A stretch of 47,326 nt of DNA from Promicromonospora citrea (GTDB lineage Bacteria > Actinomycetota > Actinomycetes > Actinomycetales > Cellulomonadaceae), in NCBI RefSeq assembly GCF_013004695.1, contig NZ_JABEMG010000022.1, positions 1 to 47,326 of the forward strand, given 5' to 3'. Below, in pieces: positions 18,174 through 19,543 of the stretch (its first letter is position 1; every line of letters begins with the position of its first letter). The notes under the pieces were generated by a model that had not been told where the DNA came from, did not search any database, and was given only the letters and a program-made list of their open reading frames with translations. The translations under genes and the position numbers were made by a program.

Positions 18174-18202
18174 TGGACAGGGGTCGGGGGTGGGGCTACC
18201 GT
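18174..18202 (+). promoter_or_regulatory. Promoter of the DAHP synthase attenuator (-35 TGGACA, -10 TACCGT)
   Basis: TGGACA (18174-18179) and TACCGT (18197-18202) are separated by exactly 17 bp. The predicted transcript starts at or next to the GTG of the leader peptide at 18210, making the leader peptide itself leaderless. This is one of the best-formed sigma-70-type promoters in the window. Confidence 0.75.
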
Positions 18203-18209
18203 TTTCGCC

Positions 18210-18275
18210 GTGGACATCCGTTGGTATTGGCGCTTTACGTCGGCTCCTGGTGGAGCCCGGCGGGCCTGCGCCTGA
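18210..18275 (+). CDS. Leader peptide of DAHP synthase attenuator (21 aa)
   Basis: A 21-codon ORF, MDIRWYWRFTSAPGGARRA followed by Cys-Ala, containing Trp5-Tyr6-Trp7 and Phe9, i.e. all three aromatic amino acids in five codons. It begins at the predicted transcription start and ends 20 bases before a terminator hairpin. In leader-peptide attenuation, shortage of charged tRNA-Trp/Tyr/Phe stalls the ribosome on these codons, and the downstream RNA then folds as an antiterminator. The gene controlled is the DAHP synthase at 18434, the first enzyme of aromatic amino acid synthesis. The fit between codon content and target makes chance unlikely. Confidence 0.85.
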   Translation: MDIRWYWRFTSAPGGARRACA

Positions 18276-18295
18276 CCAACTTCCACCCGGAGCCT

Positions 18296-18334
18296 GGGCC
18301 TGGGACGCCGATCGCGTCCAGGCCCTTCGTCTTT
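18296..18334 (+). terminator. Attenuator terminator before DAHP synthase
   Basis: Arm 18296-18308 (GGGCCTGGGACGC) pairs with 18314-18325 (GCGTCCAGGCCC) through 12 bp with one bulged G and a five-base loop. U-rich TTCGTCTTT follows at 18326-18334. A second copy of the sequence GGGCCTG at 18262-18268, at the end of the leader ORF, can pair instead with CAGGCCC (18319-18325) and would block the terminator. A ribosome at the leader stop codon would cover 18262-18268; one stalled on Trp-Tyr-Trp would not. Confidence 0.8.
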
Positions 18335-18433
18335 CCCGAGACGGGCCGCTCCGGACCAGGAGTCGGTGGCGGGCCGTCCGGTTCCTCGAACCAGATCCCG
18401 CCGACACCCAGCCGACCAGGAGTCCCGATCCCG

Positions 18434-19543
18434 ATGAGCATCACCCCTGCGGAACCCGGCACCGAGGCGATCGACCTCGGTACCCGCACGTCCGACCTGC
18501 GCATCCGCGCCCTCGCCCCGCTGCCCGCCCCGAACGCGCTGCTCGCGGCCATGCCGCTCGGCACCGCGCGCAGCGACCTCGTCACGACGTCGCGCCGCGA
18601 GGTCCGCGACGTGCTGACCGGTGAGGACGACCGCCTGCTGACGATCGTGGGCCCGTGCTCGGTGCACGACCCGGTCGCCGCGCTCGACTACGCGTCCCGG
18701 CTCGCCACGATCCGGCGGGAGCTGTCGGACGACCTGGTCGTGGTCATGCGCGTGTACTTCGAGAAGCCGCGCACGACGGTCGGCTGGAAGGGCCTCATCA
18801 ACGACCCGCACCTGGACGGCTCGCACGACGTGACGCGCGGCCTCAGCCTGGCCCGCGAGGTGCTGCTCGGCGTGCTGGACGCCGGCGTGCCCGCCGCGGC
18901 GGAGTTCCTCGAGCCCACCAGCCCGCAGTACATCGCCGACGCCGTCACCTGGGGCGCGATCGGCGCGCGGAACGCGGAGTCGCAGGTGCACCGCCAGCTC
19001 GCCTCGGGCCTGTCGATGCCCGTCGGCTTCAAGAACGCCACCGACGGCGACGTGCAGATCGCCGTCGACGGCTGCATCACCGCCGCGAGCGAGCACACGT
19101 TCTTCGGGGCCGACGGCGAGGGCCGCGCCGCCGCCGTCGAGACCGCGGGCAACCCCGACTGCCACGTCATCCTGCGCGGCGGCCGCTCCGGCCCCAACTA
19201 CGGCCGGGACGACGTCGCGGCGGCGCTGCGGGTCGCGCGCACCTCGGGCCTGAGCGGCGCGGCGGCCAACGGCCTGATCGTCGACGCGAGCCACGGCAAC
19301 TCGGGCAAGGACCACGTGCGCCAGGCGGGCGTCGTGCGCGAGATCGCCGACCGCATCGCCGACGGCGAGCGCGGGGTCACCGGCCTCATGATGGAGAGCT
19401 TCCTCGTGGCCGGCGCGCAGAAGCCCGCGCCGCTGGAGCAGCTCACCTACGGCCAGTCCGTCACCGACGCGTGCATGGACTGGGACACCACGGAGGACCT
19501 GCTGCGCACGCTCGCGAAGGCCGTGCGCGAGCGGCGCGGCTGA
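18434..19543 (+). CDS. aroG: 3-deoxy-7-phosphoheptulonate (DAHP) synthase, class I
   Basis: 369 residues. Condenses phosphoenolpyruvate with erythrose 4-phosphate, the committed step of the shikimate pathway. Class I (AroFGH) motifs are clear: LLTIVGPCSVHDPVAALDYA, MRVYFEKPRTTVGWKGLINDP, the metal- and substrate-binding GFKNATDGDVQIAVDG, LRGGRSGPNY and VDASHGNSGKD. The ATG at 18434 has AGGAGT ten bases upstream; a longer in-frame reading to 18173 would run through the attenuator and is rejected. Expression is predicted to be governed by the leader peptide and terminator at 18210-18334. A perfect hairpin at 19550-19581 ends the transcript. Which aromatic amino acid inhibits the enzyme cannot be read reliably. 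Confidence 0.95.
   Translation: MSITPAEPGTEAIDLGTRTSDLRIRALAPLPAPNALLAAMPLGTARSDLVTTSRREVRDVLTGEDDRLLTIVGPCSVHDPVAALDYASRLATIRRELSDDLVVVMRVYFEKPRTTVGWKGLINDPHLDGSHDVTRGLSLAREVLLGVLDAGVPAAAEFLEPTSPQYIADAVTWGAIGARNAESQVHRQLASGLSMPVGFKNATDGDVQIAVDGCITAASEHTFFGADGEGRAAAVETAGNPDCHVILRGGRSGPNYGRDDVAAALRVARTSGLSGAAANGLIVDASHGNSGKDHVRQAGVVREIADRIADGERGVTGLMMESFLVAGAQKPAPLEQLTYGQSVTDACMDWDTTEDLLRTLAKAVRERRG

Follow-up and report, generated by a model that had tools for sequence, protein, structure and literature searches.

A leader ORF with codons for tryptophan, tyrosine and phenylalanine upstream of the DAHP synthase gene aroG in Actinomycetes, a probable sensor of aromatic tRNA charging

The type I DAHP synthase gene aroG of the window (the whole stretch of 47,326 nucleotides that was analyzed) is preceded by a leader ORF that contains codons for all three aromatic amino acids. 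This aromatic leader is genuine and is found before aroG in many families of Actinomycetes. It very probably acts as a sensor of aromatic tRNA charging, in which a stalled ribosome controls aroG, and the sensor part is well supported. Translation of the leader, ribosome stalling, the direction of the response and translation initiation as its output are what we infer. For the window's genus, modeled folds lead us to favor, tentatively, an AroR-like attenuator whose output is the release of the aroG ribosome binding site (RBS).

Occurrence of the leader

The product of aroG (positions 18434 to 19543, forward strand), the gene presumed to be regulated, scored above the cut-offs of the NCBIfam models NF009395 (495 bits, cut-off 343) and TIGR00034 (473 bits, cut-off 173). 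Its genome yielded no further type I DAHP synthase match at E<=0.001. The nearest named relatives listed by AroG protein were Isoptericola chiayiensis and Puerhibacterium puerhi (84%), a list from which closer records may be missing; a taxonomy look-up places Isoptericola in the Promicromonosporaceae, Micrococcales. The leader ORF predicted from the sequence spans positions 18210 to 18275 (forward strand), starts with GTG, ends with TGA (18273 to 18275) and encodes the peptide MDIRWYWRFTSAPGGARRACA in 21 codons, with Trp5, Tyr6, Trp7, Arg8 and Phe9. A sequence check located this ORF, the arms of the hairpin downstream and two heptamers where the preliminary description had put them. With this predicted ORF the locus shares with trp-type attenuators a short reading frame carrying end-product codons upstream of a biosynthetic gene, and with the AroR type an aromatic-codon leader before a DAHP synthase gene.

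The DAHP synthase gene was present in 102 of 200 family genomes. The leader ORF preceded it at 83 of 90 family loci, and two more (L066 and L078) match the RNA model R1. The remaining five are two extra copies in one genome (L062 and L082), one locus on a truncated contig (L087), L089 and L090. The genome with the extra copies, G014, carries three type I DAHP synthase genes, one of them with a leader. One DAHP synthase match, G518:C1:5853247-5854269, holds a single in-frame TGA. At order level the gene occurs in 74 of 297 genomes and the leader at 30 of 40 upstream loci, 29 of them matching R1 at E<=0.01 and the other (L113) carrying the ORF; the ten loci without a leader all belong to one family, f4. 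At class level the numbers are 58 of 296 genomes and 24 of 40 upstream loci, with leaders at 13/13 loci of family f22, 9/10 of f38 (seven by scan and two by eye, the tenth locus being masked), 2/2 of f53 and 0/15 of f35.

Among named loci, 16 of 80 matched R1 at E<=0.001, and every match lay upstream of the gene. The matching taxa are Isoptericola, Puerhibacterium, Streptomyces sp. 150FB, Glycomyces, Catellatospora, a Streptosporangiaceae bin, Mycobacterium, Mycolicibacterium, Williamsia, Gordonia, Dietzia, Tsukamurella and Arthrobacter. An ORF scan located similar aromatic ORFs in Rhodococcus, Nocardia, Amycolatopsis, Pseudonocardia, Antrihabitans and Paractinoplanes, and none in four Bifidobacteriaceae and two Nocardiopsis loci; aromatic leaders are present in Rhodococcus, Gordonia and Dietzia. 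A scan of whole genomes gave R1 matches in 43 of the 394 genomes at class level. Of these 43 matches, 36 lay a short distance before a type I DAHP synthase gene (32 with gaps of 40-146 bases to the aligned gene start, the other four located separately), two (L261 and L263) lay upstream of another DAHP synthase-like gene, and five were weak and without such a leader ORF. No Rfam 15 family matches the leader; the best hit, AS1890, lies on the opposite strand with 15.5 bits and E 2.8. Outside the Actinomycetes, aromatic-rich short ORFs, which may be chance occurrences, were seen before type I DAHP synthase genes of Proteobacteria, e.g. MITVATSYFWYFSYDSSLAAGGSRSI in Bradyrhizobium and MRPVRGFFFGYFWFSSAPGGREI in Comamonadaceae (L180, L183, L194, L203, L204, L178, L191, L209, L202 and L187).

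Trp, Tyr and Phe codons are all present in 108 of the 114 Micrococcales leaders (83 family, 30 order-level and L066) and in 40 of the 45 class-level leaders (24 from upstream loci and 21 named). This conservation, together with the frequency of the ORF in the family, supports the earlier proposal of a leader-peptide attenuator with aromatic codons for aroG. Within the first 14 residues of the Micrococcales leaders Tyr is encoded by TAT in 125 of 126 cases and Phe by TTT in 104 of 108 (class level, 43/48 and 46/57). Both codons are rare in six genes of the window (TAT 1/66, TTT 0/72). The leaders of L261 and L263 encode MNRCFAFTEPAPGSRS and MNRSFAFIEPAPGSRS, which contain Phe and neither Trp nor Tyr. 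The gene after the L261 leader, the one of the two that was subjected to a domain test, exceeds the cut-offs of Pfam PF00793 and PF01817 (DAHP synthase and chorismate mutase domains), and every NCBIfam match of its protein falls under its cut-off. A Phe-only leader before a divergent enzyme is as expected of an attenuator, since the sensor follows the enzyme.

The leader is probably translated from a leaderless start. The promoter of the preliminary description is present as a promoter-like pair on the forward strand (TGGACA, 18174 to 18179; a 17-base spacer; TACCGT, 18197 to 18202), which would place the transcript start at the GTG at 18210, but a consensus scan of the sequence detected neither a promoter nor a terminator. 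A TAnnnT motif was found 6-15 bases 5' of the leader start in 114/114 Micrococcales and 31/45 class-level leaders, raw counts that include any chance matches, and an SD-like motif in 1/114 and 1/45. The motif near the start and the near absence of SD-like sequences fit leaderless translation. The leaderless start was thus well proposed but is not new, as such starts are known in Streptomyces lividans and in ilvBNC of Corynebacterium glutamicum. AroR, the leader of C. glutamicum aroF, is leaderless as well.

RNA structure of the leader

The predicted pairing strands all lie on the forward strand. Strand 1 (18219 to 18236, CGTTGGTATTGGCGCTTT) consists of the codons R-W-Y-W-R-F. It can pair through GTTGGT (18220 to 18225) with strand 1' (ACCAAC, 18275 to 18280) to form A1, or, in the window's genus, with the aroG RBS and start codon (GGAGTCCCGATCCCGATG, 18419 to 18436), to which it is complementary over 16 pairs. 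Strand 2 (18242 to 18254) is the 5' strand of stem B, and its first six bases double as the 5' arm of A2, a hairpin within the ORF whose 3' arm is strand 2' (GGAGCC, 18252 to 18257). Strand 3 (18282 to 18294, TCCACCCGGAGCC) pairs either with strand 2 (stem B) or, through positions 18287 to 18293, with strand 8 (GCTCCGG, 18348 to 18354; stem F). B and F are therefore mutually exclusive. Strand 8 follows GACGGGCC within positions 18340 to 18354; stem F, which is seen at family and class level, encloses hairpin T. Hairpin T (18296 to 18325) is terminator-like, with arms at 18296 to 18308 and 18314 to 18325, 12 bp and one bulge. Its tail (TTCGTCTTTC, 18326 to 18335) is U-rich but interrupted, CGTC (18328 to 18331) can pair with GACG (18340 to 18343), and some relatives are richer in U. 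The stretch GGACCAGGAGTC (18353 to 18364) almost repeats the aroG Shine-Dalgarno stretch GACCAGGAGTC (18414 to 18424) and is a possible decoy or duplicated site.

Covariation supports the predicted stems A, B and T, and F scores above shuffles in relatives. Three fragments with the whole or part of the ORF and T gave folding z values of -3.97, -4.44 and -5.04, reached by 0/200 shuffles each; T alone (a 56-base fragment) is unexceptional, as 8/200 shuffles fold equally well. A (1:1' and 2:2') plus T, a structure of 31 pairs drawn from the same 33 sequences that were used for its test, is 96.4% paired, with nine pairs changed on both sides and 42 double-change cells versus 8.3 in shuffles; 0/500 shuffles attained any of five measures. 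Among 57 distinct strand pairs of stem B, position -2 is C-G in 27, T-A in 15 and G-C in three, and position +5 is C-G in 42 and T-A in eight, whereas the five core pairs were demanded by the search pattern and were excluded as covariation evidence. Against dinucleotide shuffles of the 45 class-level leaders, the mean Z was -3.27 for B (33/45 at p<=0.05) and -2.09 for F (25/45); in the order set F reached -1.40 in 51 family sequences and -1.84 in 27 others. A synonymous-codon control on B was passed by 31/53, 24/28 and 30/43 relatives, and in the window's genus by 10/10 at p<=0.01 with a 15-base strand and by 0/6 with a 12-base strand. With the peptide held fixed, the fold from the ORF to strand 3 was not clearly stabler than synonymous recodings (family 1/53, genus 1/6). 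In Rhodococcus-type leaders F is, by eye, an immediate hairpin and T is absent. A +1 frame overlapping the leader (about 18228 to 18300) also recurs in relatives (ALYxGSWW...LTN), which is expected if the RNA and not the protein is constrained.

Predicted response to ribosome stalling

In the proposed mechanism a ribosome would translate the 21 codons from the leaderless start and, when charged tRNA-Trp, tRNA-Tyr or tRNA-Phe is low, would stall on codons 5 to 9. The stalled ribosome would sit on strand 1 and so block A1. A stall on W5, Y6 or W7 would leave strand 2 free for strand 3, and the resulting stem B would exclude F. In the window's genus a ribosome stalled on any aromatic codon (W5, Y6, W7 or F9) would uncover the aroG RBS and AUG and allow translation of aroG. 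With plentiful amino acids the ribosome would complete the leader, strand 1 would cover the RBS and aroG expression would stay low.

Stem B alone would be a poor reporter of all three amino acids. In folding models that ignore kinetics, and in which ribosome masks free bases by themselves, B had a mean probability of 0.93 in the family and 0.95 in others with the ribosome on the first aromatic codon. On the last aromatic codon it dropped to 0.07 and 0.24, and F rose to 0.45 and 0.61. As B is kept on the first codon and lost on the last, it could not serve Trp and Phe alike in these models. Without a ribosome B stood at 0.87 in the family and 0.80 in others, which makes it also the modeled default at equilibrium. 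In the window's genus B was 0.97 without a ribosome and 0.81 with a ribosome at the stop codon (F, 0.01 and 0.13), and a ribosome on the Phe codon occluded strand 2 (B, 0.09). Since B is high and F low without or past stalling, the modeled B/F balance does not track amino acid supply in this genus.

The pairing of strand 1 with the aroG RBS does respond to every stall position in the models. It comprises 16 bp at -17.4 to -20.3 kcal/mol, to which the rare codons TAT and TTT contribute their U bases, and has p values of 0.00-0.017 in 7/7 distinct genus sequences, uncorrected because the pairing was spotted in folds. It exceeded synonymous recodings in 10/10 genus sequences, or 8/10 when the whole ORF was offered, in a control that is weakened by the family-wide retention of rare codons. 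Ensemble folding of 13 genus sequences of recent common ancestry gave a mean unpaired probability of the SD region of 0.12 in the absence of a ribosome and 0.11 when one sat at the stop, compared to 0.56-0.60 with the ribosome on W5, Y6, W7 or F9. The start codon was unpaired at 0.04 and 0.01, respectively, versus 0.16-0.66 when stalled. Thus, every modeled stall position would free the aroG RBS and AUG, and RBS release is the only output found for which all four codons act in one direction in the models.

The evidence outside the genus speaks against this output. There the pairing had a mean Z of -0.12 in 63 family sequences (three at p<0.05) and -0.22 in 30 others (one), and 5/62 and 3/30 passed synonymous recoding. 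Sequestration of the SD by downstream RNA found no general support either (mean Z -0.23 with 3/51 in the family, -1.17 with 5/25 in others and -0.74 with 5/45 at class level). The hallmark of a translational attenuator, a uORF strand that covers the SD until a stalled ribosome pushes it aside, is predicted in the window's genus only. It is rather doubtful, on these models, that the sensor codons themselves are the strand closing the aroG RBS, so that 18 bases would read three aromatic amino acids and give an output in one direction without a terminator switch.

Transcription termination and other readings

The same sensor could instead act on transcription termination at T, which we consider possible and rank second. 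A stall would let B form, and the abutting B would stop T from terminating, comparable to ilvBNC of C. glutamicum, where the available text describes only a boundary trinucleotide as common to antiterminator and terminator (PMC11857589). T is a conserved, covarying stem, followed by 7-8 U in 10 bases in Williamsia, Tsukamurella, Paractinoplanes and a Mycobacterium, and C. glutamicum AroR is described, in the parts of the reports at hand, as acting on transcription (PMC11802643, PMC4046766). The 3' arm of T also has an ORF partner at p<=0.05 in 10/57 family and 9/43 class-level sequences, more than the 5% of chance (1/30 in others), through sequences other than the GGGCCTG heptamer discussed below. 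However, B (ending at 18294) and T (beginning at 18296) have no base in common, and an extension of B into the 5' arm of T is not above shuffles (26/300 reach the score in a set of 28 family sequences, 277/300 in a set of 24 others). T was present in each ribosome state modeled for the window sequence. Only 3/113 sequences (L109, L118 and L126) showed a difference above 0.1 in its modeled probability from one ribosome position to another, in a set where L112 was mis-located and L071 not found. No T was seen by eye at its usual place in Rhodococcus, Nocardia, Pseudonocardia and Amycolatopsis leaders, and the tail in the window's genus averages 4.8 U in 10. No stem was found that consistently excludes T, and the antiterminator exclusive with a terminator that marks trp-type attenuators was found neither in the window nor in its genus. 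The terminator proposed for 18296 to 18334 is retained as a conserved, covarying hairpin, but its tail is interrupted and the terminator scan was negative. Because all stall positions free the RBS in the models while T hardly changes, RBS release is ranked first in the window's genus.

An action of the peptide itself, as an arrest peptide or a trans-acting small protein to which RNA structure is secondary, is very improbable. The motif R-W-Y-W-R-F-T-x-A-P-x-G-A does recur in the family, and Sinorhizobium is known to have a Trp leader peptide that acts in trans. However, the conserved remainder after the aromatic residues, T-x-A-P-x-G-A-x-R, maps onto hairpin A2. In 4/33 sequences a change of ACG to ATG (Thr to Met) is accompanied by a G to A change of the partner, so that a C-G pair becomes U-A and pairing is preserved. 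The synonymous controls on B in relatives, and in the genus with the longer strand, likewise point to constraint at the RNA level.

The preliminary description had built its stall logic on an antiterminator between GGGCCTG (18262 to 18268) and CAGGCCC (18319 to 18325). Both heptamers are present in the window, but this stem would set 7 bp against a 12-bp hairpin, is missing from the 95%-identical L002 and the other genus sequences viewed, and does not exceed dinucleotide shuffles (pairing of the T 3' arm with the ORF, p 0.20 in the window and 0.67-0.93 in six other distinct genus sequences; 0/7 in the genus), which leaves it next to no probability. The upstream alignment suggested at the time gave conserved W/Y/F codons and a covarying T, but not a conserved antiterminator stem in the genus. 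A ligand-binding, riboswitch-like RNA with an incidental ORF would account for a conserved multi-stem structure that matches nothing in Rfam 15, but is highly improbable given the conservation of the three aromatic codons, the near absence of SD-like motifs and, in L261 and L263, an aromatic identity that shifts along with the enzyme.

Relation to known attenuators

The closest known system is AroR, which, as far as the available text goes, is likewise a short aromatic-codon leader with attenuation before a DAHP synthase gene (PMC11802643, PMC4046766). AroR carries F-Y-F and answers a shortage of Phe but not one of Tyr, whereas the window leader adds Trp codons; the comparison covers the codons. 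C. glutamicum ilvBNC resembles the present leader in the accessible description, with a leaderless leader ORF, a start shielded by the first hairpin and three competing hairpins, but it concerns other amino acids and has a GCC trinucleotide common to antiterminator and terminator, of which no counterpart was found here (PMC11857589). Leader peptides before amino acid genes are described for other Actinobacteria, those of S. lividans being leaderless, in the text available (PMC1262725, PMC8079986). As far as these sources were accessible, the 2005 survey by Seliverstov describes no conserved RNA structure in operons for Phe or Tyr (PMC1262725), and the S. lividans list of eight leaders includes none for DAHP synthase (PMC8079986). 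The main text of a study of ncRNAs in 50 genomes (PMC11109978) contains no mention of DAHP, aroG, aroF or a leader peptide. In translational attenuation by uORF-SD pairing, a stall disrupts the pairing, according to the part of PMC13236596 at hand; here, if the pairing is real, the paired strand would consist of the sensor codons. The same text describes branched-chain leaders that sense several amino acids (LVVI codons of ilvB1). The novelty claimed for one leader reading three aromatic amino acids is narrowed by this precedent; in the literature searched, mostly without subscription papers, no Actinomycete leader of DAHP synthase with all three aromatic amino acids was found described.

Biological meaning

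DAHP synthase controls the entry of carbon into the synthesis of every aromatic amino acid. In industrially important bacteria, a leader that responds to Trp, Tyr and Phe together, occurs in many Actinomycete families and is missing from Rfam 15 would be a further layer of regulation. It would also be a clean system in which to study the integration of three amino acids by a single leader: with the Phe codon so near the switching strand, this strand should be blocked by a Phe stall and freed by a Trp stall.
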